Below, in pieces: positions 273 through 13,909 of a DNA stretch of 14,109 nucleotides. The notes beneath the pieces are model-generated. The model saw only the letters and a program-made list of their open reading frames with translations. It was not told where the DNA came from and ran no database searches. A program made the translations under genes and the position numbers. The DNA comes from an uncultured Methanomethylovorans sp. (lineage in GTDB: Archaea; Halobacteriota; Methanosarcinia; Methanosarcinales; Methanosarcinaceae): contig CALBTS010000369.1 of assembly GCA_937968035.1 (NCBI GenBank), positions 1-14,109 on the forward strand. The letters are read 5' to 3'. Each line of letters starts with the position of its first letter. Positions within the stretch are counted from its first letter, which is position 1.

Positions 273-1652
273 TTAGAGGCCGTAGTTCTCTGGCCTGAAG
301 ACCTTTATTTCGGCCTTGTACTTGCTCATGCAGTCGCTCATGAACTTGTCTGCATCTGCAGTGAGTGCTTCCAGTTCACCCTTTGCCTTCTGCAATGCAT
401 TGATCTCGAACCTGGTCATCTCAAGACCCTGTGCAGAGGTCAGCAGGTTGCAGCATTCCACAGCAGCGTTCTTTGCACGGAGGTACAGGTTGTTACCGTC
501 CTTTACGATTGCCTGGCCTATCTTGTATGCGTTGTCGTATGCAAGGATGTAGGACTGTGGATCCCTGTACTTGTCAGACGCTACAAGCAGGTCCCTGAGG
601 AGCTTCTCGTTTCCGGATTTGAGTGCAACGTTCATCAGTGCGCAGTCGTAGCTGAGGGTCTCGGACCAGCACTGGACCGTAGTTCCACCGAATTCGGAGT
701 GATATTCGACGGATTCGTTGGACCACAGGTCACAGCACTGCATGATGAGGTTACCCATTACATCGGAATGTGCACAGGTGGAGGTCTTACCTTCAAAGGC
801 CATTGGCATACCAGTGATCGCCTTTACGAAGATGTTCTCGTATCCGCAGTCCTTTCCTGGGCCTACTGCACCGGCTTCATATCCGGAGAGCGTCCTTGCT
901 CCTGCCAGGCTCCTGGCAATGATCGCAAGGGTGTGTGCCAGGTTCTTGTCAAGCAGTCCGCCTGCAATGAACATTGCAGTGTTCGCCTGTGCACAGTCTG
1001 TGTCACCGGCTGCAACGACATTCTTCTTCTGGGCGACCTTTGCAATGTCCTGCCAGAGGTATTCCATATCCATGCTGCCGAGAACACCTATTGCGTAGAG
1101 CATACCAGCAATATCGTTCCTCAGGATCGCATAGTCGAAGATCTCCTTTCCACCCATTGATTCAATGGACAAGAAGTCTGCTCCGCCTTCTGCAACAGCC
1201 TCGAATGACTCCATAAGCACAGGGTACTTGTTTCCTCTGAGGTCCATGTAGTCCTTGTTCTCTCTGATGTCACCGGGGGTGTGTCTCAGTGCGGACTTCA
1301 GACCATATTCTTCATAGTACTCTTCCATAATGGTCTTCTGTGCGTGTGCGACCTCCCCACCCCATGTTGGGTTGTTGGTCATCTGCTGCACGTGTTCTGT
1401 CTCGAGGACTACTGCAGGGAACCCTACCTGGACCATTCTCTGGAGAATGTCCCTTGTAATTCTCTGGTATTCGTTTACCAGCTTCTCTTTGGAAGCGCCT
1501 GCTTCTGGTCTGGGTGCGTAGTTAACTTCAGCGATAGTGCATCCTGCACCCAGCTCAATTCCAAGTCCTGTCTTTACCGGGTATTTTGCACGGCCGAAAA
1601 CCATCTCATCTGCATTTGCATAAGCCATCTGTGTGTATCTTTTTACTGCCAT
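273..1652 (-). CDS. mtaB: Methanol:corrinoid methyltransferase MtaB
   Basis: MtaB is the zinc enzyme that activates methanol and methylates the Co(I) corrinoid of MtaC, the first step of methanogenesis from methanol in the cytoplasm. The protein is 459 aa, close to the family length of about 460. From the ATG at 1652, the three zinc ligands established for Methanosarcina barkeri MtaB fall at the same numbers: Glu164 (in LSIESMGG), Cys220 (in AGDTDCAQ) and Cys269 (in GPGKDCGYE). This supports the ATG at 1652 over the in-frame GTG at 1661. The GAGGTG ribosome binding site (1659-1664) lies six bases before that ATG. mtaC ends 14 bases upstream, so the two genes form an operon in the usual mtaC-mtaB order. 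No in-frame amber codon is used, as expected for MtaB, unlike the methylamine methyltransferases. Assignment is firm. Confidence 0.97.
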   Translation of the reverse strand: MAVKRYTQMAYANADEMVFGRAKYPVKTGLGIELGAGCTIAEVNYAPRPEAGASKEKLVNEYQRITRDILQRMVQVGFPAVVLETEHVQQMTNNPTWGGEVAHAQKTIMEEYYEEYGLKSALRHTPGDIRENKDYMDLRGNKYPVLMESFEAVAEGGADFLSIESMGGKEIFDYAILRNDIAGMLYAIGVLGSMDMEYLWQDIAKVAQKKNVVAAGDTDCAQANTAMFIAGGLLDKNLAHTLAIIARSLAGARTLSGYEAGAVGPGKDCGYENIFVKAITGMPMAFEGKTSTCAHSDVMGNLIMQCCDLWSNESVEYHSEFGGTTVQCWSETLSYDCALMNVALKSGNEKLLRDLLVASDKYRDPQSYILAYDNAYKIGQAIVKDGNNLYLRAKNAAVECCNLLTSAQGLEMTRFEINALQKAKGELEALTADADKFMSDCMSKYKAEIKVFRPENYGL

Positions 1653-1666
1653 TTTTTTCACCTCGT

Positions 1667-2431
1667 TCAGTGTTTGTGGAACATTGTCCTAAGCTTGTCT
1701 ATACCAGCACCGGCCAAGATAGCATCTGCCATCTTTGGTGCATCTGCTGCCTCTTCACCATAGACACCCAGTGAGTATGTTGAAACGAAGTCCTGGTTAA
1801 CTGCTCCGCCACCACACTGGAATGGTATCTTTATGCCGGCTTCAAGAAGCTGGTCGTTGACCTCTTTGAATGCGTACATGGTGGTTGTCATCAATGCAGT
1901 GCCTGTTACCATGAGTGGCTTGTTTGCCTTGACGGCTGCGAGGACCTCTGCGGCTGGTACATCCCTTCCGAGGTCGATAACTTCATAGCCGTTTGCTCTG
2001 AGGAGTGCTGCAACAATGGACTTACCTATGTCATGAACGTCTCCTTCTGCCACGTGGACAACTACCTTGCCTTTTGATTCAGGGGACTCACCAGATTTCT
2101 CCTTGCAGTACTCGATACCTTCAAGCATTGCATCGGCAGACATCATAACATTTGGCAGGAAAATTATACCCTGGTCATACAGGTTTGTTACTACACCCAT
2201 ACCGACCATCAGTGCGTCATCAATGAGGGAAATTGGACTCTTTCCGGCTGCAATGGCCTTCTCCAGACCTGCGATCACATCGTCTTCTTCGCCTTCAAAA
2301 ATAGCTTCAGCGATGGAACGGAAAAGAGCATCCTTTGGATAAAGCTCTGCTGCAGCATCTTCCGGGGTCATTGATTTTTCCATTTTTACGTTGTATCTTA
2401 CTAATATATCCTTGTAGTCTATTTTTAACAT
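1667..2431 (-). CDS. mtaC: Methanol corrinoid protein MtaC
   Basis: MtaC carries the corrinoid that MtaB methylates and that MtaA demethylates to make methyl-coenzyme M. The protein is 254 aa, near the usual ~258. Residues about 35-115 are the helical cap domain (B12-binding 2) and 120-245 the Rossmann-type B12-binding domain. The base-off/His-on motif is D131-x-H133-x-x-G136 (EGDVHDIGKS), so His133 is the lower axial ligand of cobalt. The later TGTALMTTTMY and CGGGAV segments match the nucleotide-tail binding loops. The ATG at 2431 has an AAGGAAG site 6-8 bases upstream. It is the first gene of the operon and lies behind a 631-bp AT-rich region containing tandem TATA boxes. A hairpin in its leader is described separately. 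Confidence 0.97.
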   Translation of the reverse strand: MLKIDYKDILVRYNVKMEKSMTPEDAAAELYPKDALFRSIAEAIFEGEEDDVIAGLEKAIAAGKSPISLIDDALMVGMGVVTNLYDQGIIFLPNVMMSADAMLEGIEYCKEKSGESPESKGKVVVHVAEGDVHDIGKSIVAALLRANGYEVIDLGRDVPAAEVLAAVKANKPLMVTGTALMTTTMYAFKEVNDQLLEAGIKIPFQCGGGAVNQDFVSTYSLGVYGEEAADAPKMADAILAGAGIDKLRTMFHKH

Positions 2432-3062: not shown

Positions 3063-3827
3063 TTAATGCCTGTGGAATTTCTCCCTTAGTTCCTGCACAC
3101 CAGCACCTTTCAGGATGTCATCAGCTATCTTTGGTGCATCTGCTGCTTCCTCACAATATACCCCAAGTTCATAACCAAACACGAAATCCTGTTTTACAGC
3201 TCCACCACCACAAACAAAGGGAATACGAATGTTGTTCTCAAGTAGCAAGTTATTGATCTCTTTGAACGAATACATGGTAGTGGTCATCAAAGCAGTACCT
3301 GAAAGCATGATAGGTTTTTCTCTTTTGACAGCATTTATAACTTCACTGACCAGCACATCGCTGCCAAGATCTATGACCTCATAACCATTCGCACGTAAAA
3401 GAACAGTGACGATCTTCTTTCCAATGTCATGCATATCTCCTTCTACAACAAACGACACAACCCTGCCTTTGAATTCATGGACTTCACTGGACATCTGTTT
3501 ACAATATTCAATACCATCGGTCATGGCATGTGCGGATATTATGACATCAGGAAGAAAAAGGATACCTTCATCATATAGCTTAGATACGATACCCATTCCT
3601 GGCATGAGGGCATCATCAATCAGAGACAAAGGATCACTGCCAGCCTGTATCGCTGTCTCTAAAGCATCAATAACATCATCTTCATCACCTTCAAAAACAG
3701 CTTCAATGATAGATCGTATCATCATGTCTTCAGGAAATAACTCCTTAGCTATTTCTTCTGGACTTTGCTCCTTTTCAACCTTAACATTATAACGGACCAG
3801 GATCTCAGATGGGTCGATATTTATCAT
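3063..3827 (-). CDS. mtaC: Second, orphan MtaC-like methanol corrinoid protein
   Basis: An ungapped hand alignment with the MtaC encoded at 1667-2431 gives about 168 identities in 254 positions, and both proteins are exactly 254 aa. The cobalt-binding motif is intact (D131-x-H133-x-x-G136, EGDMHDIGKK), as are the GTALMTTTMY and CGGGAV loops, so it should bind a corrinoid. I chose the ATG at 3827 because it aligns with the start of the other MtaC and has GAAGGAAAG 5-13 bases upstream. An upstream ATG at 3857 would add 10 unrelated residues. No mtaB lies beside it: downstream is 631 bp of AT-rich DNA. Upstream, 39 bases away on the same strand, is a PAS/GAF protein. It is visibly richer in A/T-ending codons than mtaC, which hints at lower expression. 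It may be an alternative partner of MtaB or have a sensory role; the latter is inference. Confidence 0.93.
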   Translation of the reverse strand: MINIDPSEILVRYNVKVEKEQSPEEIAKELFPEDMMIRSIIEAVFEGDEDDVIDALETAIQAGSDPLSLIDDALMPGMGIVSKLYDEGILFLPDVIISAHAMTDGIEYCKQMSSEVHEFKGRVVSFVVEGDMHDIGKKIVTVLLRANGYEVIDLGSDVLVSEVINAVKREKPIMLSGTALMTTTMYSFKEINNLLLENNIRIPFVCGGGAVKQDFVFGYELGVYCEEAADAPKIADDILKGAGVQELREKFHRH

Positions 3828-3845
3828 ATTCTTTCCTTCTAATAA

Positions 3846-3856
3846 TTTTATATACA
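3846..3856 (-). promoter_or_regulatory. TATA-like box before the orphan mtaC-like gene
   Basis: On the minus strand the 39-base gap after the PAS/GAF gene reads GTATATAAAAT, a strong TATA sequence centred about 25 bases before the ATG at 3827. It could start a transcript at or next to that codon, which would make the mtaC-like gene at least partly independent of the upstream gene. A ribosome binding site also lies between them, so read-through from the upstream gene would be translated as well. Confidence 0.35.
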
Positions 3857-3866
3857 TGTGTTTTTT

Positions 3867-6617
3867 TCAGCCGCTTCCTCTGCCAAGACAGATAAGAGCT
3901 GAATGTCCGTCCCAATTTCCCCGGGTGGCTTTTATTTCCACAGGTACCAGTTTCCCATCACATGATTCAAAAGGGATCCTTACTATGGACATTTTCCCAG
4001 CCAATATATCGGCAAGCGCAGTGGCGGCCTCAATAGCTCTGTTCTGAGGATGGAGATTAAGCACGTTCAAGCCAAGCAGTTCTTCATGGGAATAGCCGAG
4101 ATTTTTGCACAGATAACTATTGGTATGTAATATACAGCCATTCAGATCAAGGACATATAGAAAATCCTCTATAGTGTCAAAAATTTCCTGTAAATTGTTA
4201 AGGTTGTTTTGGAAATGTACCTGTTCCCTTATGCGCCCAATCGAGGGTCCTACTTGAGAAGCAATACTTTCAAGTATACTGCGTGTGTTTTGTGAAATGG
4301 CATATTCAGTGTGTGACGCGAGCAGGAACACTGCGACAACATTCCCTTCATACTTGAGGGGCAGTATCGCAGTGGCTTCAAGTCCTTCAAAATCAAGATC
4401 TTTTCCATGGGTCATGGAATTTATCTCATAATAAAGTTTATAGATCGGATATTCGCTCTTCAGTATCCTGGAGTGTAGAGAATTGGCAGCATAATGTCGT
4501 GTACTGTTCACAAACCTGAACGATAGACCTTTATGCGCAATTAGGTTCAACTCTCCTGTAGACCCATCTACAAGATACAATGCACCGCAATCTATTCCTT
4601 TGACCTGCGTCACAAGTTCAATGAATTGCTGAAAGGTATCTTTTACATCGGTCGTGGGAGTGAAAAGGGTACCGAGCTCTGCGCCTATGCGCATGAAATT
4701 ATTAACGTTCTTGCGCTCAGTGATATCAACTATAATACCCTGTAGATATTCGATCCTGCCATCAGGATCTCTCTTAATGATCGATCGTTCATCTATCCAG
4801 CGCACTTCACCAGATCTTGTAAGGATACGATACTCAAGAGAAATGTTACTTTCACCTTCCTGGAAACATCTTGAAGTATCATTATCCCTTTTTTGAAGAT
4901 CTGATGGATGAATAATATCCTCATAAAATATCTTCCCCGATATAAATTCTTTCGCAGTGTATCCGAATTGGGAAATATTCTCAGATACGAACTCTACTGA
5001 CCATTTCTTATCGGGTTTCCAGAAAAACACAATTGCCGGACTGCTTTCGATCACGTTCTCGAGGACCTTTTGCACCTCTATGAGCTTAAGAAGTTCTTTT
5101 TCTCTTGTTTTCTGCTCCGTAATATCCCGGATGATGGCCATGTAAGACGGCCTGCCTTCATGTTCGATTATTGATGAATTTATCTCTGCAGGGATCCTAT
5201 TCCCACTCTTTGAAAGCAGTTCGATCTCATATTTATGAGCGGTCTCACGCTTTTTCTCCAGATTTCTCCTGAACTTCCCGGTGATCATGCGACGATATTC
5301 CATTGAAAGGAAGTTGGCAAATGGTTTACCAATAGCTTCTGTACGGGTATATCCGGTGATCTCAATAAACTTGCTATTGGCAAACACGAGATGGTCATCC
5401 TGCAAAATAACGATCCCGTCATTGCTCTTTTCAACAAGGGTCGAGTATTTCTTTTCAGAGTTTTTAAGCTCTGTCTCAGCTTTTTTCCGTTCTGCAATGT
5501 CCCTTACAGTGAGCATCACAGCAGGTCCATTTTCATAGTATATGAATGAAAGACTGATCTCAGCCGGAAAAGTAGAACCATCTTTCTTGAAGAGGTCCAC
5601 TTCATAATTACGCTTTATGCTTCTTTCATCTCTTAGTGCCTTAGTGCATCTCTTTAACAGCATACGCCTGAAATCTATTGGAACGTGATCTAACAATAGA
5701 CTATTGATGATTTCCTCTTTCTGATACCCTGTTAGTTCCAGGAATTTGGAATTCGTAAACTTCAATAGATCCGCCTGCATTATAATTATGCCATCATTAC
5801 CATGCTCTACAAGGACAGAATAATTTGCCTCTGATGCCTTTAATTCCATCGTAGATCTTTTTCTGTCAGTGACATCTTCGATGGCAAGTAAGATCATTCT
5901 ATTTGTGCTATCCGATGTGTTCATGATTTTGGATTTCACGCTTATCACACGATGTCCTTTTTTGCCGGAATGTTGCTCTAGCTCAAGATCATTGAACTCT
6001 GTACCATGTTTCTGGAGTTCTGACATCCTGGCCCTTAAGACAGGAATATTCCACTGCCCGTCTTCAACATCGTATAGGAACTGACCTTCGGTTCTTGAGG
6101 GTCCTGTTCCGAACAAACTGTAGAATGAAAGGTTTGCAAATATTATTTTTAAATTTATATCTAGTACTAATAGCGCTTCTCGTACATTATTGACAACACT
6201 TTTTAAATAATCGTTCTCCTGCCCGATGCATAGTTCTTTTCTCTTACTTTCTGTGATATCCACGATCGTTCCATGCAGACATTTAAGAATACCCTCTTCG
6301 TCATATTGCCCATGACAAAACTGTGCCACCCAGTGCACATCGCCTTTCTTATCCAGTATTCTGTATTCCAGAAAAAAGCATGACAGGTTATCATTGTACA
6401 TTTTCCGGACCGTATACTTTATTTTATCCCTATCGTCGGGATGGACAATATCCGAATATGTGAGAAAACCTGATATGAACTCACCTGGTGTATATCCAAA
6501 TTGTTCTATATTCTCCGAAACTGAAGCTATGGACCAGTTCTCATCATTTTTCCATGAAAAAGTAAATACATCATTATTGCAAAATGTAGATCCAATTTTT
6601 TTTATTAAACAGTCCAT
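3867..6617 (-). CDS. Cytosolic multi-PAS/GAF sensor protein without an output domain
   Basis: From the ATG at 6617 the protein has 916 aa. In order it has PAS (about 12-124), PAS (131-253), PAS (262-379), PAS (383-505), PAS (518-636), GAF (640-796) and PAS (806-916). Most PAS units end with the typical DIT/DIAxRK linker (IVDITESKRK, VRDIAERKKAE, IRDITEQKTRE, IVDITERKN). The first and fifth resemble each other, as do the third and fourth, which points to internal duplication. No transmembrane segment, histidine kinase core, receiver or DNA-binding domain is visible. The last PAS stops at LICLGRGSG where a D-I-T-E-R-K linker would be expected. Start choice: AGGTG lies five bases before 6617. 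The ATG at 6638 (GAGG nine bases upstream) is an alternative, while the ATG at 6674 has no ribosome binding site. It precedes an orphan mtaC-like gene by 39 bases. The ligand is unknown; the domains could bind heme, flavin or small molecules. Confidence 0.9.
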   Translation of the reverse strand: MDCLIKKIGSTFCNNDVFTFSWKNDENWSIASVSENIEQFGYTPGEFISGFLTYSDIVHPDDRDKIKYTVRKMYNDNLSCFFLEYRILDKKGDVHWVAQFCHGQYDEEGILKCLHGTIVDITESKRKELCIGQENDYLKSVVNNVREALLVLDINLKIIFANLSFYSLFGTGPSRTEGQFLYDVEDGQWNIPVLRARMSELQKHGTEFNDLELEQHSGKKGHRVISVKSKIMNTSDSTNRMILLAIEDVTDRKRSTMELKASEANYSVLVEHGNDGIIIMQADLLKFTNSKFLELTGYQKEEIINSLLLDHVPIDFRRMLLKRCTKALRDERSIKRNYEVDLFKKDGSTFPAEISLSFIYYENGPAVMLTVRDIAERKKAETELKNSEKKYSTLVEKSNDGIVILQDDHLVFANSKFIEITGYTRTEAIGKPFANFLSMEYRRMITGKFRRNLEKKRETAHKYEIELLSKSGNRIPAEINSSIIEHEGRPSYMAIIRDITEQKTREKELLKLIEVQKVLENVIESSPAIVFFWKPDKKWSVEFVSENISQFGYTAKEFISGKIFYEDIIHPSDLQKRDNDTSRCFQEGESNISLEYRILTRSGEVRWIDERSIIKRDPDGRIEYLQGIIVDITERKNVNNFMRIGAELGTLFTPTTDVKDTFQQFIELVTQVKGIDCGALYLVDGSTGELNLIAHKGLSFRFVNSTRHYAANSLHSRILKSEYPIYKLYYEINSMTHGKDLDFEGLEATAILPLKYEGNVVAVFLLASHTEYAISQNTRSILESIASQVGPSIGRIREQVHFQNNLNNLQEIFDTIEDFLYVLDLNGCILHTNSYLCKNLGYSHEELLGLNVLNLHPQNRAIEAATALADILAGKMSIVRIPFESCDGKLVPVEIKATRGNWDGHSALICLGRGSG

Positions 6618-6800
6618 TTTCACACCTGCAATTTTCATTGTCAGTGTCCTCTTTTTCTTAAAGAGGTGATTCATGGGAGATGATCGATCTATAAATTGCT
6701 GACAATACAGATATTGGTATTAATGAAGCTATTGACTATCATTGAAAAGATCCTGTTACTTTAAAAGAGAATCTTAAATACAAGTTGAACAGATTATATA

Positions 6801-6877
6801 GTAGCTCGCATCTGACTAATGATACTTCCTTCCTTCGATCCAATCTACAGAGGAGTATTCTCAAGGATGTGAGCTAC
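6801..6877 (+). repeat. 12-bp inverted repeat with a 53-base loop
   Basis: GTAGCTCGCATC (6801-6812) pairs with GATGTGAGCTAC (6866-6877), eleven Watson-Crick pairs and one G-U in RNA. Inside it, ATACTTCC (6822-6829) can pair with GGAGTAT (6852-6858) with one bulged base, so the whole 77 bases can fold into one structure. A plus-strand TATA-like ATTATATA ends at 6800, directly at its left arm. It may be a regulatory site for the divergent promoters or a small RNA; nothing in it looks coding. Confidence 0.35.
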
Positions 6878-6912
6878 ATTCCTTATGTGTTTTCTGCATC
6901 AATAGAAAACCT

Positions 6913-6920: not shown

Positions 6921-6941
6921 CAAGTTGTGTTTGAAAAGAGT

Positions 6942-7490
6942 ATGATACCAACAAAAGCTTTCATGGTTAAAGGCGCTGGTGTTCATAAAGACAAACTCGC
7001 ATCTTTTGAATTGGCCTTAAGGAATGCAGGTATAGAGAAATATAACCTTGTATCTGTTTCAAGTATATTGCCTCCTAATTGTAAGATCGTAAAAAAGGAG
7101 GAAGGTCTGCCTGAATTAAAACCAGGGGCTATTGTTCATTGTGTCCTTGCAAGGAATCAGACGAATGAGCCCCATCGCCTGATGGCGGCTGCCATCGGTA
7201 CTGCCATACCGGTAGCTGCAAAGGAACAATATGGATATATTTCAGAACATCATTCCTTCGGAGAAGATGAGATAACTGCAGGAGAATATGCAGAGGACCT
7301 TGCTGCAACCATGCTGGCAACAACACTCGGTATTGAGTTTAACGTCGAGTCCGCATGGCATGAGAGAGAACAGGTTTACAAAGCAAGCGGTCATATATTT
7401 GATTCACTTCATATTTGTCAGTGTGCAAAAGGCGATAAAGACGGTAAATGGACTACAGTAGTGGCTGCAATGGTGTTTGTCATACCATAA
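6942..7490 (+). CDS. pdaD: Pyruvoyl-dependent arginine decarboxylase
   Basis: The enzyme converts arginine to agmatine and CO2, the first step of polyamine synthesis in many methanogens. It is made as a proenzyme that cleaves itself at a Ser-Ser bond, and the second serine becomes the pyruvoyl cofactor. That site is SVSSILPP, cleaving between Ser40 and Ser41. The family's catalytic glutamate fits Glu102 in YGYISEHHSFG. GAGVHKDKLASFELALRNAGIEKYNLVS and the AEDLAATMLATTLGIEF segment are typical of the Methanosarcina type. The protein is 182 aa from the ATG at 6942, whose MIPTKAFMVKG matches the family's usual start as I remember it. A GTG at 6927 would add five residues and has no better signal. 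It stands alone, divergent from the PAS/GAF gene and followed by a T-run terminator. Confidence 0.94.
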   Translation: MIPTKAFMVKGAGVHKDKLASFELALRNAGIEKYNLVSVSSILPPNCKIVKKEEGLPELKPGAIVHCVLARNQTNEPHRLMAAAIGTAIPVAAKEQYGYISEHHSFGEDEITAGEYAEDLAATMLATTLGIEFNVESAWHEREQVYKASGHIFDSLHICQCAKGDKDGKWTTVVAAMVFVIP

Positions 7491-7507
7491 ATGTAGCTAT
7501 CTTTACT

Positions 7508-7523
7508 CTCTTTTTTTATTTTG
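7508..7523 (+). terminator. T-run terminator after pdaD
   Basis: CTCTTTTTTTATTTTG begins 18 bases after the pdaD stop codon. Oligo-U tracts like this terminate archaeal RNA polymerase. No hairpin is evident in front of it. Confidence 0.55.
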
Positions 7524-7550
7524 ATCATCCATTTGTTTTGTTTGCATAGA

Positions 7551-7558
7551 GTTTTATA
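7551..7558 (+). promoter_or_regulatory. TATA-like box of the sensor histidine kinase gene
   Basis: GTTTTATA is centred about 28 bases before the ATG at 7583, and no ribosome binding site precedes that ATG. A leaderless transcript is plausible. A second AT-rich stretch (TTATAATA, 7571-7578) is too close to the start to serve as its TATA box. Confidence 0.35.
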
Positions 7559-7582
7559 GTGCTTTCTTAATTATAATATTTG

Positions 7583-9520
7583 ATGCGTTCACATTTCTAC
7601 GAGTTTGCCGCCAGAAACCGATGGACTCTAATGGTTGCTTTAATTCTCATCATATTCATAGCCCTTGCATCTTATTCCATAGAGGAGGACAGAAAGGATA
7701 TCACTGCAAGCATGGAATACAAAACAAAGATAGAAACCCTGCATATCAGTATGAACCTCAGTTCAGAGCTTGGTGAAGTAACCCGTGAACTTTTGACAAT
7801 ATATGACATTAAGAAAAGTTCTCCACCACAGGACCAGGATGAGTTCTCTTATAAAACCGAACCATTGCTCCGCAGGAATGCATTCCTTTCTTCTGTATAT
7901 TATATTGATACAGAGCAAGATCTGGTCCTGAAAGCACCAGAAGATAGCAATTCTTCGCCAGCTGCATATGAAGACAACAATTCGATATTGGAAATAGCAA
8001 TGATCGTTGCTGATCATACGCAGAAGCCATACCTTTCAAGGCCGTATGAGATCACACCAGGTAATTATGGGTATTCTTTAATGGTGCCGTATGGGAATCA
8101 TTCTTTTTTCCAGCTCATTTTTACATGTGAAGATGTCTTTGCACAGGATACTAGCTTCAGACTGGATAATGAGCTATTGATACAGGTAATGGATGACCAG
8201 AAAGTTGTTTACACTTCAGAGGCTTATGAATTGGAGCTGTCCCGATCAGATAGGTTCCTAACGACTTCCAGAATAAAGCTCTATAACAGAGAAATAGCGC
8301 TGGAAACCTTGCCATCTGATGCCATGTTGAGCACACATATGGAACTGTGGGAAACGTTCGGACATGGAAGCCTCTATCTTATTTTACTTATTCTTTTACT
8401 AATCATACTTTTCCAGATGTTCGATATAAGTGAACGTAAGGAACACGAACGAAAACTGGAACTGTCTGAAAAGAAGTTTAGATCGATATTCAATAATGTC
8501 AATGATGCTATATATATAAATGATCTCAAAGGAAATTTCCTGGAGGTCAATAATGTATTATGTGATACTCTGGGTTATTCTAAGGAAGAACTACTCAAAA
8601 TGCAGCGATGGGAGATCATGCTTCATCAGTCCCCCAGAAAAACAGAAAAAAGAATTAATGCAGTTCTTAAGCGTACAGAAGTGTTTTCCGAGACTGTGCA
8701 CGTTGCACGAGATGGTACTCTTATCCCTGTAGAACTGAGCAGCCGTCTAATTGATTATGAAGGCCAGCAAGCTGTAATAAGTATTGCAAGGGACCTGTCG
8801 GAAAGTAAAAGGGCTGAAATGCTGCGCAAATCCAATGAAGAACTAATGCAGTTAACTAGAATGAAGGACCTTTTCACCGACATACTCCGGCATGATCTGC
8901 TTGGCCCTGCATCTGTTATGAAGGGGTACACTGAGTTTCTGCTGGACACTACTGAAGACAGCGAAAAGAAACAAGTGCTTGAGAAGATGTATCAGAATAA
9001 TCGTAAGCTTATTGAAATGATAGATAATGCCGCAAAACTTGCAAAGTTCGAGAGCATTGAAGAACTTGATTTTAAGACAGTTGATCTGTTCCCGTTGTTG
9101 ATGTCAGTAGTAGATAGCTATCAGCCACAGTTACAGGTGAAGGGCATTTTATTGAAAGTCCCTCTGGAAAAAGAATATAACTCTTTGATCAACCCTATAA
9201 TTACAGAAGTGTTCTCCAACATACTCTCCAATGCTATCAAATATAGTCCTCTCGGCAGCGAGATCCTGATCGGCATAGAAGATGAGACAACGAACTGGAA
9301 AATACTTGTGACAGATTCAGGAGAAGGTGTGGAAGCAGATGACAGGGAACAGATATTTGATCGTTTCAGCAGGGCTCACAAAGGAGGGGTAAAGGGAAGC
9401 GGTTTGGGTTTAGCCATCGCAAAAAGAATAATTGACCTTCACGGTGGAAGCATCGGTGTCACCAGTAACCCGGCTGGCAAAGGGAGCGTTTTCTGGTTCT
9501 CCATAAAGAAAGGAGTATGA
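7583..9520 (+). CDS. Membrane-bound PAS sensor histidine kinase
   Basis: The protein has 645 aa. A first membrane helix lies at about 14-32, an extracytoplasmic sensor domain at about 33-262, and a second helix at about 263-280. Then come a PAS domain (290-408, ending with ARDLSESKRAE) and a complete kinase core. The phosphorylated histidine is His437 in DILRHDLLGPAS. The ATP-binding half has the N box (Asn546 and Asn550 in FSNILSNAIKYS), the G1 box DSGEGV (from Asp578), an F box (IFDRFSRAH) and the G2 box GSGLGLAIAKR (from 605). It senses an external signal that cannot be named. No response regulator is adjacent, as is common for archaeal kinases. The start is the ATG at 7583; the TTG immediately before it adds one residue and is not needed. 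It converges on a small gene, with only 12 bases between the stop codons. Confidence 0.93.
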   Translation: MRSHFYEFAARNRWTLMVALILIIFIALASYSIEEDRKDITASMEYKTKIETLHISMNLSSELGEVTRELLTIYDIKKSSPPQDQDEFSYKTEPLLRRNAFLSSVYYIDTEQDLVLKAPEDSNSSPAAYEDNNSILEIAMIVADHTQKPYLSRPYEITPGNYGYSLMVPYGNHSFFQLIFTCEDVFAQDTSFRLDNELLIQVMDDQKVVYTSEAYELELSRSDRFLTTSRIKLYNREIALETLPSDAMLSTHMELWETFGHGSLYLILLILLLIILFQMFDISERKEHERKLELSEKKFRSIFNNVNDAIYINDLKGNFLEVNNVLCDTLGYSKEELLKMQRWEIMLHQSPRKTEKRINAVLKRTEVFSETVHVARDGTLIPVELSSRLIDYEGQQAVISIARDLSESKRAEMLRKSNEELMQLTRMKDLFTDILRHDLLGPASVMKGYTEFLLDTTEDSEKKQVLEKMYQNNRKLIEMIDNAAKLAKFESIEELDFKTVDLFPLLMSVVDSYQPQLQVKGILLKVPLEKEYNSLINPIITEVFSNILSNAIKYSPLGSEILIGIEDETTNWKILVTDSGEGVEADDREQIFDRFSRAHKGGVKGSGLGLAIAKRIIDLHGGSIGVTSNPAGKGSVFWFSIKKGV

Positions 9521-9869: not shown

Positions 9870-10565
9870 TTAGATATTCTCCAATTTTTCCATATCCAAC
9901 AATCCGTCCTTGACCCAGATTATCCGGTCTGCCTTCTCACCTTCATCTTTCTCATGTGTGACCATTACTATAGTTTGCCCGATCTCCTTATTGAATTTCC
10001 TGAACAGGTTGATAACATCCTCTGAAGATGCAGAATCAAGATTAGCCGTTGGCTCGTCTGCAAAAAGGATCTTTGGTTTATTGACCAATGCTCTTGCAAT
10101 GGATACTCTCTGCTGTTGTCCCCCGGAAAGCTCGGAAGGGTAATGATACATCCTGTCTTCTAATCCCACTGCAGCAAGTATTTCCTCTGCCATTTTCTCA
10201 TACTCTTCTCTTTTCAGATTTCTTGCCATTGCCGTGATATAGACATTTTCAATAGCTGTAAGTTCTGGTATCAGGTTATATGACTGAAAAACATAACCTA
10301 ATTCGTGGAGTCTGAATCTGGTCCTCTCTTTTTCAGAAATATTGATGACATCGCTTCCACCTATAGTTATACTTCCTTTTGTAGGCTTATCCAGAAGTCC
10401 AAGTTGATGCAACAAAGTACTCTTGCCGCTTCCGCTCTTTCCCATGATGGCAACGAACTCACCCTCGTTTATTTCAACACTTATATCTCTGAGGGCATAT
10501 GTCTTAACAACACCTGTAATATAAAACCTTTCGAGATTCTTGGTCTTGATTATCGCCCTTTCCAT
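9870..10565 (-). CDS. ABC transporter ATP-binding protein, LolD/MacB type
   Basis: This is the ATPase of the exporter-like ABC system with the permease gene upstream. The 231-aa protein contains Walker A (GKSGSGKST, about 42-50), a Q-loop (GYVFQSYNLIPELTAIENV), the signature LSGGQQQR (146-153), Walker B (ILFADEP, 166-172) and the H-loop His204 (VTHEKDE). The length and the SYNLIPELTAIENV stretch are typical of the LolD/MacB/FtsE branch (COG1136), whose members drive membrane-anchored substrate extraction or mechanical transmission rather than import. I chose the ATG at 10565 because GGAGG ends six bases before it. The ATG at 10571 directly abuts that site. The ribosome binding site lies in the last codons of the permease gene, and the permease stop codon falls two bases before this start, so translation is coupled. 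Confidence 0.94.
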   Translation of the reverse strand: MERAIIKTKNLERFYITGVVKTYALRDISVEINEGEFVAIMGKSGSGKSTLLHQLGLLDKPTKGSITIGGSDVINISEKERTRFRLHELGYVFQSYNLIPELTAIENVYITAMARNLKREEYEKMAEEILAAVGLEDRMYHYPSELSGGQQQRVSIARALVNKPKILFADEPTANLDSASSEDVINLFRKFNKEIGQTIVMVTHEKDEGEKADRIIWVKDGLLDMEKLENI

Positions 10566-10567
10566 CT

Positions 10568-11770
10568 TCATCCTCCGAATATTGCATCCAGTATATTTTC
10601 ATCAGCTGCTTTTCTGGACGGGAAAAAACCAGCAACTATCGATGCCAGTATAAGTGTGGCACTGGTTGTCATAAGTCTCTCTGTGGTGAGGATCGGGATC
10701 ACCGGACCGATAGGCATGCTAAGTGGGTGTATCGACAGAAGTAAGAGTAACAGTTTCATTATTATATTTCCTATTATGACCCCGGTGATTCCATAGGCCA
10801 ATGACTGCAGGACATACGAACCCAGGATTATTTGCTTTTTAATGCCCACTGCCTTAAGTATACCTATCTGTTTTCTTTTGTTCGTGACATTGATAAATAT
10901 AATTATATATATCGTTGCAAAAGCAGTTAGAAGTCCTATAGTGCCTGTTATCTGATTTGTGATCTGAAGACTTCCCACAAACTGATTTACAGCTCCCATC
11001 TTTGTCTGCCATTTATTTATTTGCTCACTAACCCCAAGATCAATGATCCTTTCTGTATAGGATTCTTCCAAGCCCCTTTGAGGAAGTGCTATAAGAATGT
11101 TAGATGCAATATCTTCCGTGGAATTAAATATCAACTGGTACTGGTCGAAGCTGATTATTATTTTGTCATCAACAAACCGTGATCCTGTTTTATATATACC
11201 CTTTATTCTGTACTCTTTTACGAAACCATTGCTAAAGCTCAATATGATCTTATCGCCCACATCCACATCAAATCTCTTTTGTGTGTCTCCTTCTGCAGCA
11301 TAGGACTTAACCAGATTTGCCCCTATCAGTAATTCATCTGTATCTTTCTTTGAAAGATATTCCCCTGCAATAACACTACTCCAGTAATCTGATACAGCTT
11401 TCTCATTTTCAGGTTCTATAAAGAGAACCGGATTCCCGATTTCTATTGTTTCATATCGTGCTACTGCACTTGCATCAAGTCTTCGTGCAACCCCAACAAC
11501 CCCGGGAATTCGGCGGATGTCTTTTACAAGGTCTCCTGAACCTGAAATATAAAGTTCATCTTCTTGAGGTTCTATCATAAGATGTCCGGTTTGCCCCCGG
11601 ATCATCCCTTCTTCGAATTCATATCCCAGGCCATCAATGATCGAAGCAAAGAAAGTAATGGAGAGAAAACTCATCGCCATCACGGCAACAATAACCATGA
11701 AAGTGATCTTGCTTTTGATGAGGTTCTTGTAAGCTAAAAAAAACATTACTTTAAGATCATTGTTCTCCAT
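10568..11770 (-). CDS. ABC transporter permease, MacB/LolC (FtsX-like) family
   Basis: A 400-aa protein with the four-helix topology of the MacB/LolC family. Helix 1 lies at about 22-46, a large extracytoplasmic domain (MacB periplasmic core type) at about 50-270, and helices 2-4 at about 276-295, 316-345 and 366-384. After helix 2 comes KRKQIGILKAVGIKK, the conserved cytoplasmic coupling segment of FtsX-type permeases, and the end FPSRKAADENILDAI is also typical. The start is the ATG at 11770, with GGAGTG a few bases upstream; it overlaps the end of the upstream surface-protein gene by 14 bases. It lies between the surface protein and the ATPase in one operon. The substrate is unknown; the linked surface protein may be a transported, released or co-functioning component. 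Confidence 0.92.
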   Translation of the reverse strand: MENNDLKVMFFLAYKNLIKSKITFMVIVAVMAMSFLSITFFASIIDGLGYEFEEGMIRGQTGHLMIEPQEDELYISGSGDLVKDIRRIPGVVGVARRLDASAVARYETIEIGNPVLFIEPENEKAVSDYWSSVIAGEYLSKKDTDELLIGANLVKSYAAEGDTQKRFDVDVGDKIILSFSNGFVKEYRIKGIYKTGSRFVDDKIIISFDQYQLIFNSTEDIASNILIALPQRGLEESYTERIIDLGVSEQINKWQTKMGAVNQFVGSLQITNQITGTIGLLTAFATIYIIIFINVTNKRKQIGILKAVGIKKQIILGSYVLQSLAYGITGVIIGNIIMKLLLLLLSIHPLSMPIGPVIPILTTERLMTTSATLILASIVAGFFPSRKAADENILDAIFGG

Positions 11771-12926
11771 TTTCACTCCGCCTTCTCTTATATACAAGAT
11801 AAGCTACTGGTATGGCTATTACAATCAACAGGACAATGGACAGGATAACATTGGTCTTTGGCCTTTCTACTTCCATTGGTATTGACTGCTGGATCTTATG
11901 TGAGCCAAAATCATCGGTGTAATTTATGGTTATGTTAAGATCCTTCTTTCCTGCAGAACCTGGGTCTATATCAAAATAGAAAGGAGAATCATCTTCGCTT
12001 CTGAGCTGTCCAATGAAAGACTTATAGCTTGTATCTTCATTTTCCAGTTCTACAACTACCTGCTCTGCAGCACCATTGCCTGTATTCTCAATGATCCCAG
12101 TAATATGAACTTCGTCGAGGGGAGTGATCTGGGTTGGATTTACCTTTATGCTCTGGATTCCAATATCTGCCCGATTAAGTATATTGATCCCGATATTGTA
12201 GGTTGAAGTATAATTTGAACCCAGTTCATCAATATACTTAAGTGTTATAGGAAATTGATGTGCATCGGGGTTCAGATCATTCTTTGCAATAAAACCACTT
12301 TCTATCTGTGCTGTCTCTGCCGGCATTATCTTCTCGATCAGTTCAATGTTGGACCCAAGGATCAATATACTTTCAGATTCAGAAATGATCTTAACGTTCT
12401 TTGCCATGCCCGTACCAATATTATTCACAGAGAGCTTTAGCGGAAATGTATCTCCTGGAGCAATATTGTCAATAACATCGGCTTTTATTGCAAGGTCCGG
12501 TTTTCCAACTACTTGCACATAAACGTTGTTATCGGAGGAATTAAATATCACATCGTTGAGATAAATATCAAATTCTATCGGATAGATGCCAGATATTGCA
12601 TCCGGATCAACTGTCATATAATAGACATTGTCTACAGATGAGCCTACACTTAATGTCCTTTTGTTCTCTAAATTCTTACTTTCGCTCTTCAGGTAGAAAG
12701 GATATTGCACATCCATTTTAACTGAAAAGTCTTCGATTTTTTCCATGCCTTCATTTGTGACCCGTACCTTAAGAGTGACATCACCCCCCGGCTCTGCTGG
12801 CTGTGGAGTGATTTCTGTGATCGTTATCCCAATTCCGTTGATTTTCGCAGAAGATATGATTGACGTACCAATGATCAGCGATAGGATCAACATAAAGATG
12901 ATAATATTTCGTATGTTTATTTTCAT
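11757..12926 (-). CDS. Cell-surface protein with three CARDB/NEW3-like domains (COG1361-type), membrane anchored
   Basis: The 389-aa product starts with a signal peptide or membrane anchor (about 5-26). Three immunoglobulin-like domains of about 100 aa follow (roughly 31-141, 142-250 and 253-353). Each opens with the pattern seen in archaeal S-layer-related CARDB/NEW3 domains, for example ITPQPAEPGGDVTLKVRVTNEG and VNPTQITPLDEVHITGIIENTGNG. It ends with a membrane helix (about 358-378) and the positive tail YKRRRSENGEQ, so most of the protein faces outward. The ATG at 12926 has AGGGTG six bases upstream and begins the hydrophobic signal; longer in-frame starts would place about 46 unlike residues before it. 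It is the first gene of an operon with a MacB-like permease and ATPase, and its end overlaps the permease by 14 bases. It may act with the transporter at the cell envelope, as inferred from linkage. Confidence 0.87.
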   Translation of the reverse strand: MKINIRNIIIFMLILSLIIGTSIISSAKINGIGITITEITPQPAEPGGDVTLKVRVTNEGMEKIEDFSVKMDVQYPFYLKSESKNLENKRTLSVGSSVDNVYYMTVDPDAISGIYPIEFDIYLNDVIFNSSDNNVYVQVVGKPDLAIKADVIDNIAPGDTFPLKLSVNNIGTGMAKNVKIISESESILILGSNIELIEKIMPAETAQIESGFIAKNDLNPDAHQFPITLKYIDELGSNYTSTYNIGINILNRADIGIQSIKVNPTQITPLDEVHITGIIENTGNGAAEQVVVELENEDTSYKSFIGQLRSEDDSPFYFDIDPGSAGKKDLNITINYTDDFGSHKIQQSIPMEVERPKTNVILSIVLLIVIAIPVAYLVYKRRRSENGEQ

Positions 12927-12968
12927 GAGGGACACCCTATTGTTTGATAATATTTTGTAAATGCCTTT

Positions 12969-12993
12969 TTGTGTAGGATATTTCACTACACAA
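12969..12993. promoter_or_regulatory. Inverted repeat, candidate operator in the divergent promoter
   Basis: TTGTGTAG (12969-12976) and CTACACAA (12986-12993) form a perfect 8-bp inverted repeat around a nine-base spacer. It lies immediately upstream of the TATA box of the TrmB-like gene and about 43 bases upstream of the surface-protein start. A dimeric regulator bound here could affect both genes. Confidence 0.5.
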
Positions 12994-12994
12994 T

Positions 12995-13003
12995 AATTAT
13001 AAA
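12995..13003 (+). promoter_or_regulatory. TATA box of the TrmB-family regulator gene
   Basis: AATTATAAA is centred about 26 bases before the ATG at 13025. There is no ribosome binding site before that ATG, so a leaderless mRNA starting at the ATG is likely. Confidence 0.5.
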
Positions 13004-13020
13004 CAACTAAGTAGTTGTTT
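13001..13020. promoter_or_regulatory. Perfect palindrome between TATA box and start of the regulator gene
   Basis: AAACAACTA and TAGTTGTTT form a perfect 9-bp inverted repeat separated by AG. It begins at the end of the TATA box and stops four bases before the ATG at 13025. A protein bound here would block RNA polymerase recruitment, which is the classic site for autorepression in archaea. The TrmB-family protein encoded next to it is the obvious candidate; this is inference. Confidence 0.6.
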
Positions 13021-13024
13021 GTAT

Positions 13025-13909
13025 ATGGGATTTTCACTCCATAATAAACCTCAAAGTAGTTCAACGCCGGAATGTGAACAGTTGTTAAGGAATATAGGAT
13101 TCAATAAGTATGAGGCATCTGCCTATTTGACTCTCTTAGAAGAAGGATTTACAGATGCGAGTCTGCTTTCGAAAAGGTCAAAAATACCAACTGGCAAGAT
13201 TTATTCAGTGCTTGATAATCTGGAAAACATCGGATTTATCGAAGTCCAGCATTCTAGACCAAAAAAATATCGTGCAATAGAAGCAAGCATAGCTTTTGAA
13301 AAATATTTCACATTAAAGGAAAATGAGATTCAAAGAGAGCTGAGTACACTGAGAAAAACAGTAGATGATCTTAAAAAAGCTTTATCGAATTATAGTACGC
13401 AGGGGGAGAAAGAAAAACATTTCTGGTCGGCTGCAATGGGAGACCAAGAGGTCATGAAAATGATCAAAAATGTTTACCATGAAGCTAAAAGTGAAATTTG
13501 TGTTGTTGTTCCAGGGAATATAAGATCAATGGAACCAAATCAATTCAAGGATATGTTTACTTCAATGTTCCATGACACTCTTCTTCCGTTAGTGAAAGAA
13601 GGAATTAGAATAAGAATGATCGATCCAAACCCAGCGCTTTCTGAAGCTCTGAGGGAATGGTATGATTCTACAGAAGATAAAGTATCAATACAAAATCTAT
13701 CGGAACATCTGGAAGTAAAGGCTCTGGATACTCCAAACAGGTTTATACTGATCGACCTGGATCTGGTCATATTGGAAATCAATGATCCGCTTTCTGCAGA
13801 CAAGATTTATGGCATGGTCAAAATATATGACCGAGAATTGGCAAATGAACTACATACAAAATTCGAAGAATTTTGGCAAAAGGGCAAGAATCAACTGTCT
13901 TATGGTTAA
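13025..13909 (+). CDS. TrmB-family transcriptional regulator
   Basis: A 294-aa protein. Residues about 15-88 are a winged helix-turn-helix of the TrmB type (LLRNIGFNKYEASAYLTLLE, then IPTGKIYSVLDNLENIGFI as the recognition region, then a wing with RPKKYRAIE). A short coiled-coil linker follows (about 95-125). The C-terminal part (about 130-290), with KSEICVVVPGNI, RIRMIDPN and RFILIDLDLVI, resembles the effector and dimerisation part of TrmB-like proteins. The effector cannot be named; classical TrmB proteins bind sugars, but methanogen members often control other functions. The ATG at 13025 is preferred over a TTG at 13019 because of the TATA spacing. It is divergent from the surface-protein/ABC operon with about 98 bp between starts, containing two inverted repeats, so it likely controls itself and that operon. 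Confidence 0.9.
   Translation: MGFSLHNKPQSSSTPECEQLLRNIGFNKYEASAYLTLLEEGFTDASLLSKRSKIPTGKIYSVLDNLENIGFIEVQHSRPKKYRAIEASIAFEKYFTLKENEIQRELSTLRKTVDDLKKALSNYSTQGEKEKHFWSAAMGDQEVMKMIKNVYHEAKSEICVVVPGNIRSMEPNQFKDMFTSMFHDTLLPLVKEGIRIRMIDPNPALSEALREWYDSTEDKVSIQNLSEHLEVKALDTPNRFILIDLDLVILEINDPLSADKIYGMVKIYDRELANELHTKFEEFWQKGKNQLSYG

Follow-up and report, generated by a model that had tools for sequence, protein, structure and literature searches.

A lone MtaC-type corrinoid protein gene conserved beside a PAS/GAF sensor gene in Methanosarcinaceae, tentatively read as a reporter of methyl loading or redox state

How methanogens sense which methylated substrate is in use is little known; sensors encoded near methyltransferase genes have been described, their cues and targets being mostly open. 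Corrinoids are used for sensing in CarH, which carries its own helix-turn-helix (HTH) domain, and in purple bacteria the genes aerR and crtJ adjoin. The B12-domain protein AerR, a light receptor, acts on the PAS-domain regulator CrtJ, which has a DNA-binding HTH (PMC6199135, PMC9144470, excerpts). In Methanosarcina acetivorans RdmS binds and hydrolyses ATP, and MsmS is described as a similar kinase (PMC11784639, excerpt). The first methyltransferase of a methyl transfer system is consistently encoded beside its corrinoid partner, and work with non-cognate corrinoid proteins had, to the knowledge of those authors, never been reported (PMC6855144, excerpt). A lone mtaC gene (mtaC1) from an uncultured Methanomethylovorans sp. 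departs from the rule in that excerpt. It lies in a stretch of 14,109 nucleotides (assembly GCA_937968035.1, contig CALBTS010000369.1; the whole stretch is called the window below), next to the gene of a protein built of PAS and GAF domains (the PAS/GAF protein). We found that the pair is real and conserved and that the lone copy is not a duplicate. In the open-licence literature searched, no previous description of a lone MtaC paired with a PAS/GAF protein was found.

The 111 genomes of the family were searched for MtaC and for the PAS/GAF protein, the neighbourhoods were fetched and their genes ordered; the genus names given to relatives are "type" labels, which rest on genus grouping and trees. 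A PAS/GAF gene of the same family adjoins mtaC1 in all 51 MtaC1 loci fetched, a count that is partly circular because the loci were fetched through MtaC1 or PAS/GAF matches. Less circular is the count from the 55 best PAS/GAF places in the 111 genomes (466.7 bits and up, a cut that we chose), 54 of which have an MtaC1-type gene as neighbour, in two cases with a single kinase gene in between. The exception (G009) has an MttC-like gene beside it; the next lower place (G011) is not among the loci fetched, and no MtaC was found near the place in G008. The preliminary description of this DNA had called for a survey of relatives, in which lack of conservation would count against its idea; the pair proved to be conserved, in the 51 loci and in three betaine-type loci (see below).

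An mtaB gene stands directly behind mtaC1 in 24 of the 51 loci and in none of the other 27, which are the window, 3 Methanomethylovorans-type and 23 Methanolobus-type loci. The usual order in Methanococcoides-, Methanohalophilus- and Methanosalsum-type loci is mtaA, ramA, PAS/GAF, mtaC1, mtaB1, mtaC2, mtaB2, some loci ending at a contig edge, missing one of the first genes or holding an extra gene. It is PAS/GAF, mtaC1, mtaC2, mtaB2 in Methanomethylovorans-type loci and mtaC1, PAS/GAF, mtaC2, mtaB2 in Methanolobus-type loci. No PAS/GAF gene of this kind lies close to other mtaCB loci (the mtaC3 loci L074 and L075 and the Methanosarcina-type L085). Neither MtaC1 nor this PAS/GAF protein was found in 4 of the 27 Methanolobus-group genomes (G050, G051, G054, G055). 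The Methanomethylovorans group has the pair in 3 of 6 genomes; it was not found in G069 and G070, and from G071, which carries the element described below at a contig end, it may be missing in the assembly only. As a side observation, a CobW-like GTPase gene stands between ramA and PAS/GAF in two mta clusters (L083 14385-15431, L086 4844-5935).

That the lone gene encodes a complete MtaC-like protein with its cobalt-ligand histidine, and that it has no mtaB beside it, had been stated before and holds. The window MtaC1 reaches 456 bits against NCBIfam MtaC_Meth (NF040655; cut-off 420), has both B12-binding Pfam domains, aligns with PDB 2i2x chain B (query 17-264) and keeps the DxHxxG cobalt-ligand motif intact as GDMHDIGK (His133, codon 3429-3431; the histidine was counted by hand); the sole mtaB of the window stands behind the other mtaC. 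With the neighbouring MtaC2 it shares 66% identity. The B12 domains are the only Pfam domains matched, a CarH-type fusion to an HTH not being among them. A CarH-like upper histidine, looked for in the string SAHAM of the window MtaC1, was rejected: in the rows inspected, lone copies carry His, Gln or Asn at this position and partnered copies carry Gln.

The N-terminal arm of MtaC docks MtaB (PMC9842639, excerpt). This arm is retained in the lone MtaC1 (35 of 40 conserved cells in four copies), which, judged from its sequence, therefore likely still docks MtaB. Methanomethylovorans-type lone copies are under purifying selection (ratio of nonsynonymous to synonymous substitution, dN/dS, 0.03-0.08 in six pairs, dS being above 1 in five and partly saturated), and in most of the six pairs their dS is about twice that of MtaC2. 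The frame is open in all 27 lone loci, one being cut by a contig end. In the Methanolobus-type lone copies 12.5% of the carrier-conserved cells are changed. One mtaC1 of a partnered locus (L190 7515-8279) is split in two frames, by decay or by sequencing error, and was excluded from the conservation and codon counts.

In a tree of 104 MtaC proteins the 51 MtaC2 and MtaC3 rows split from the rest with support 100/100 and the window's lone copy falls among MtaC1, by which split an origin as a duplicate of mtaC2 was rejected. Methanolobus- and Methanomethylovorans-type genomes showed no MtaB1; their MtaBs are MtaB2 and, where sampled (12 genomes), MtaB3. A hidden mtaB1 elsewhere was also rejected, since the 12 far MtaB rows sampled and one more form a separate MtaB3 clade and stand beside an mtaC3 of their own. 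(In L111, G050:C95:22866-24230, mtaC3 and mtaB3 are one open frame of 795 amino acids.) In the partnered locus of G031 the MtaB behind MtaC1 belongs to the other MtaB clade. The mtaB behind mtaC1 in 24 loci and the place of MtaC1 in the tree indicate that the "orphan" is an old isozyme that has lost its mtaB1, not a copy of mtaC2.

The tree of the PAS/GAF proteins has a shape similar to that of the MtaC tree. Lone-type and betaine-type PAS/GAF proteins group together (Shimodaira-Hasegawa-like approximate likelihood ratio test, 99), and the matching grouping of lone- and betaine-type MtaC1 is weakly supported (82/32). In 21 Methanolobus-type loci the pairwise distances of MtaC1 and PAS/GAF correlate with 0.96, and with MtaC2 and MtaB2 partialled out r is 0.88, reached by 0 of 999 permutations (G049 was excluded, and of the 22 rows then left one had no MtaB2 and could not be used).

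The PAS/GAF protein of the window contains six NCBIfam sensory_box stretches and one Pfam GAF domain; its start at 6617 is backed by the first Met of L001 and L002, which align there. Kinase, receiver, cyclase/phosphodiesterase and DNA-binding families were matched in none of 30 family members, the window included (E up to 0.001), which bears out the claim of a sensor without output. Odd weak matches among the 30, to an aldo-keto reductase (8), a phage chaperone family (3) and a piece of PrP8 (1), are taken for chance. The sequence and the domain scans also agree with the six PAS domains and one GAF, the common strand and the 39-base spacing given in the preliminary description. The spacing is counted from the ATG at 3827 as start of mtaC1; the listed open reading frame begins with an upstream ATG at 3857, with which the gap would be 9 bases. 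A TATA-like box in the gap had been thought to make co-transcription uncertain. The string is there, but it was not seen at the same place in three relatives (gaps of 39, 34 and 21 bases), so that co-transcription is favoured in the Methanomethylovorans-type group. In Methanolobus-type loci, where mtaC1 comes first and PAS/GAF follows after 68-478 bases (automatic starts), this order and spacing do not assure a single transcript.

Codon usage was scored in four genus-type groups with mcrA as the high pole (that of G001 is a piece of 295 amino acids) and the PAS/GAF genes as the low pole, the scored genome being left out. The lone MtaC1 scores -0.36 in the 4 Methanomethylovorans-type and -0.45 in the 23 Methanolobus-type loci; the PAS/GAF genes, low by construction, score -0.39 and -0.44. 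MtaC2 scores 0.00 and 0.20, its range being disjoint from that of the lone MtaC1, and MtaC3 0.06 (7 rows) and 0.14 (8 rows); among these rows a G002 gene is counted twice (L075, L126), and the fused G050 frame enters under C3 as well as under B3. The window itself gives 0.22 for mtaB2, 0.06 for mtaC2, -0.41 for mtaC1 and -0.46 for PAS/GAF. The values for the Methanolobus-type betaine locus are -0.53 for the lone copy, -0.28 for the MTTB enzyme and -0.21 for the corrinoid protein that belongs to this enzyme. From its codons the whole PAS-linked unit would appear to be built for low or conditional expression.

Positions of the features discussed, in the window unless a locus handle (L) is given
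Feature	Position	Strand	Basis or detail
mtaC1, lone MtaC-type corrinoid protein, 254 amino acids	3063-3827	-	domains, NCBIfam, tree
Gap between PAS/GAF stop and mtaC1 start, 39 bases	3828-3866	-	sequence
PAS/GAF protein, 916 amino acids, six PAS and one GAF, no recognised output domain	3867-6617	-	domain scans
mtaC2, methanol corrinoid protein, mtaB behind	1667-2431	-	domains, NCBIfam, tree
mtaB2, sole methanol:corrinoid methyltransferase gene in the window	273-1661	-	domains, NCBIfam, trees
Conserved inverted-repeat element, 85 bases	6797-6881	-	arms 6866-6877 and 6801-6812, near-invariant core 6829-6845
TATA-like string GTATTTAA	6774-6781	-	some 20-25 bases past the 3' arm; found by eye
Betaine-type loci: PAS/GAF, lone MtaC1-like, BCCT, MTTB-family enzyme, second corrinoid protein	L199 297-10390, L200 3044-10770, L201 177-10198		
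mtt-linked PAS/GAF loci	L070 4122-9416, L071 14303-19584, L072 4078-9380, L073 3177-7271		

Upstream of the PAS/GAF gene lies a conserved inverted-repeat element, whose arms GTAGCTCACATC and GATGCGAGCTAC flank a near-invariant core. In 49 aligned loci 84.7% of the cells of the 12-pair helix are paired, against 25-44% when the helix is slid, and 0 of 500 shuffles reached the covariation score, the structure having been drawn from the same 49 sequences, which favours it. Six element sequences gave folding z values of -2.9 to -5.2, which, like the covariation of the arms, would suit an RNA. At two inner positions of the helix many sequences have mismatches other than G-U. A model built from the 49 matches 51 of 185 genomes of the order (E up to 1e-4), namely all 50 that have an mta-linked PAS/GAF gene and G071; matches outside the building set are those of G005, G040 and G071, a second G024 locus that looks identical to the first, and a stray copy in G028. 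Near the stray copy, which is full-length (59.5 bits, L261 9757-9859, G028:C14), no PAS/GAF gene was recognised. Among the mtt and betaine-type loci searched, no match was better than E 0.75. The element stays with PAS/GAF, not with mtaC1, where the gene order swaps, and lies between the two genes in Methanolobus-type loci. Rfam gave no match at gathering score in the window and five sub-threshold matches in the region of the element.

The TATA-like string GTATTTAA is a possible core promoter of the PAS/GAF gene. In relatives, similar strings were seen by eye at about the same distance (20-25 bases) behind the 3' arm; the automatic best-score positions are scattered and do not show recurrence alone. 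Because of these strings and of the mismatches other than G-U, an mRNA leader is not preferred: the element may be a DNA operator or a structured leader, promoter DNA being as likely as mRNA leader. Weak matches of the model in G079, G090 and G091 were set aside because they lie inside a gene, presumably truA by its start; one in G028:C5 is intergenic, and those in G100 and G102 are not among the matches examined. Four Methanococcoides-type loci (L176, L179, L182, L183) have, 61-81 bases upstream of mtaC2, a 17-base string like the core (3 mismatches); in L180 and L181 it overlaps the called mtaC2 start.

In the betaine-type loci (in G028, G066 and G024) a PAS/GAF gene from the same clade stands with an MtaC1-like gene upstream of genes for a BCCT transporter, an MTTB-family enzyme and an MttC-like protein; in G028 and G024 a histidine kinase gene sits between PAS/GAF and the MtaC1-like gene. 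The BCCT transporter of G066 passes the betaine BCCT cut-off. The MTTB-family enzyme is one open frame of 475 amino acids; the two that were scanned fall short of the cut-off for the trimethylamine enzyme. Since the MttC-like corrinoid gene stands directly behind the gene of this enzyme, the MtaC1-like protein is here again a corrinoid protein without an enzyme of its own. Two of the three MtaC1-like copies have lost the docking arm and the third has an altered one; changes affect 26 of the 98 columns that are conserved in carriers. PAS/GAF relatives also head mtt operons: four Methanomethylovorans-type genomes encode a related protein of 852-867 amino acids ahead of mttB, and in three of them mttC was recognised as well. 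The one such relative scanned gave no kinase match.

In the window a pyruvoyl arginine decarboxylase and a PAS histidine kinase are encoded divergently from the PAS/GAF gene (6927-9520, plus strand). The kinase (7580-9520) was rejected as a fixed partner of the pair; L002 has it too, G071 (L262) has it split into two pieces, and in L069 it is not beside the pair. A separate cluster at 9870-13909 encodes a LolD/FtsX-like ABC transporter, a repeat-containing protein and a TrmB/DUF7436 regulator.

We propose, tentatively and with confidence a little short of even, that the lone MtaC1 is a low-abundance reporter of methyl loading or redox state that is read by the PAS/GAF protein to adjust the neighbouring methanol genes. 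MtaC1 would dock MtaB2 by its retained N-terminal arm and be methylated when methanol is used; it would touch the PAS/GAF protein, which would read the methylation or redox state and, because it has no output domain of its own, relay the signal in trans, to a kinase or another regulator. In the betaine-type loci, with the arm lost or altered, a different methyltransferase or the redox state would supply the input. With such a pair the cell could probably monitor how much methanol it is using. The earlier idea that the pair reports methyl flux or redox state is supported in part: the pair is conserved, and the low codon adaptation and the matched distances fit a joint role apart from bulk carriage. 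A wider reading, that a catabolic methyl carrier has become an archaeal receptor, in a module portable between methanol and betaine, and that at the methanol loci expression of the pair is set through the 85-base element, is possible but less likely than not.

Several observations weigh against the reporter proposal. In the window's group 2.6% of the carrier-conserved cells are broken, compared with 2.5-6.1% in the groups of partnered MtaC1. The 11 partnered loci show as strong a distance correlation (0.85), which is therefore no mark of the lone state, and linkage alone may add to the correlation of MtaC1 and PAS/GAF, although mtaC2 and mtaB2 are also close by. Ordinary genes of the window have equally low codon scores (kinase -0.34, arginine decarboxylase -0.35, transporter -0.30 and -0.45, TrmB -0.60), so that a low score argues against bulk carriage and not for sensing. 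The medians of partnered MtaC1 and MtaB1 are likewise low, at -0.33 to -0.44, for which reason we gave up the idea, raised by the dS values, that codon adaptation fell when mtaB1 was lost. With the swapped order of the Methanolobus-type loci and the element between the genes, separate promoters may serve the two. The pair was not seen in Methanosarcina-type genomes, and for 12 of 20 further PAS/GAF relatives sampled no MttC-like gene lies within five open reading frames.

The carrier-like state of the window copy leads to the rival that comes closest, in which MtaC1 is a minor or conditional methyl carrier served in trans by MtaB2 or MtaB3, the PAS/GAF protein merely regulating the cluster. 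We regard this as a real possibility, if not a probable one. The corrinoid and carrier motifs, the docking arm and the NCBIfam equivalog score of the window copy are those of a carrier, the order PAS/GAF-mtaC1-mtaB1-mtaC2-mtaB2 of other genera resembles a plain isozyme operon, and a low codon score is compatible with conditional expression; yet the score lies far under that of the MtaC3 isozyme of related genomes, and the betaine-type copies keep the pairing despite their many changed columns. The simpler view offered earlier, of a spare MtaC that shares the single MtaB, also survives, the window copy being as carrier-like as partnered MtaC1; in other genera this type of MtaC has an mtaB1, which the present lineage has lost. 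That the PAS/GAF protein is the mta sensor by itself, MtaC1 being retained for an unrelated reason such as translation coupling or mRNA stability, we consider unlikely: the family does occur at mtt operons where no additional lone corrinoid gene was noticed, and the upstream element follows PAS/GAF upon the order swap, but the betaine-type loci also combine MtaC1-type with PAS/GAF genes, and the two have a common history that differs from that of mtaC2 and mtaB2. Very improbable is a decaying relic left by the loss of mtaB1. It would account for the changed cells of the Methanolobus-type copies, for the four Methanolobus-group genomes without either gene and for the split frame of L190; against it stand the purifying selection in Methanomethylovorans-type loci, partly saturated as dS is, and the open frames of the lone loci.

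Compared with MtaC as defined by NF040655 and PDB 2i2x chain B, the lone MtaC1 is alike in its score above the cut-off, both B12 domains, the cobalt-ligand motif and the N-terminal arm. It differs in lacking an mtaB partner gene (none stands directly behind mtaC1 in the 27 lone loci), in standing beside a PAS/GAF gene and in a codon usage far under that of working carriers. We know of no lone corrinoid partner of MsmS or RdmS, whose make-up of PAS and GAF domains we in part presume. They resemble the PAS/GAF protein in being cytosolic sensor-type proteins tied to methyltransferase genes, and differ by an ATP-binding kinase domain (PMC11784639, excerpt), which was not recognised in the 30 PAS/GAF members scanned at E up to 0.001.

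The proposed use of the corrinoid of MtaC1 for sensing would be a likeness to CarH; in CarH, however, the HTH is fused to the corrinoid-binding protein, whereas the lone MtaC1 matches B12 domains only. If a corrinoid carrier indeed serves as receptor, the cell would read the methyl flux directly and not the substrate. As in the case of AerR and CrtJ, the gene of a B12 protein adjoins that of a PAS protein, contact between the two being in our case a proposal. The PAS/GAF protein is without HTH, and the proposed cue is the methyl or redox state, not light. Lacking a DNA-binding part in its PAS protein, the pair would work like AerR-CrtJ but would not be a member of that system.

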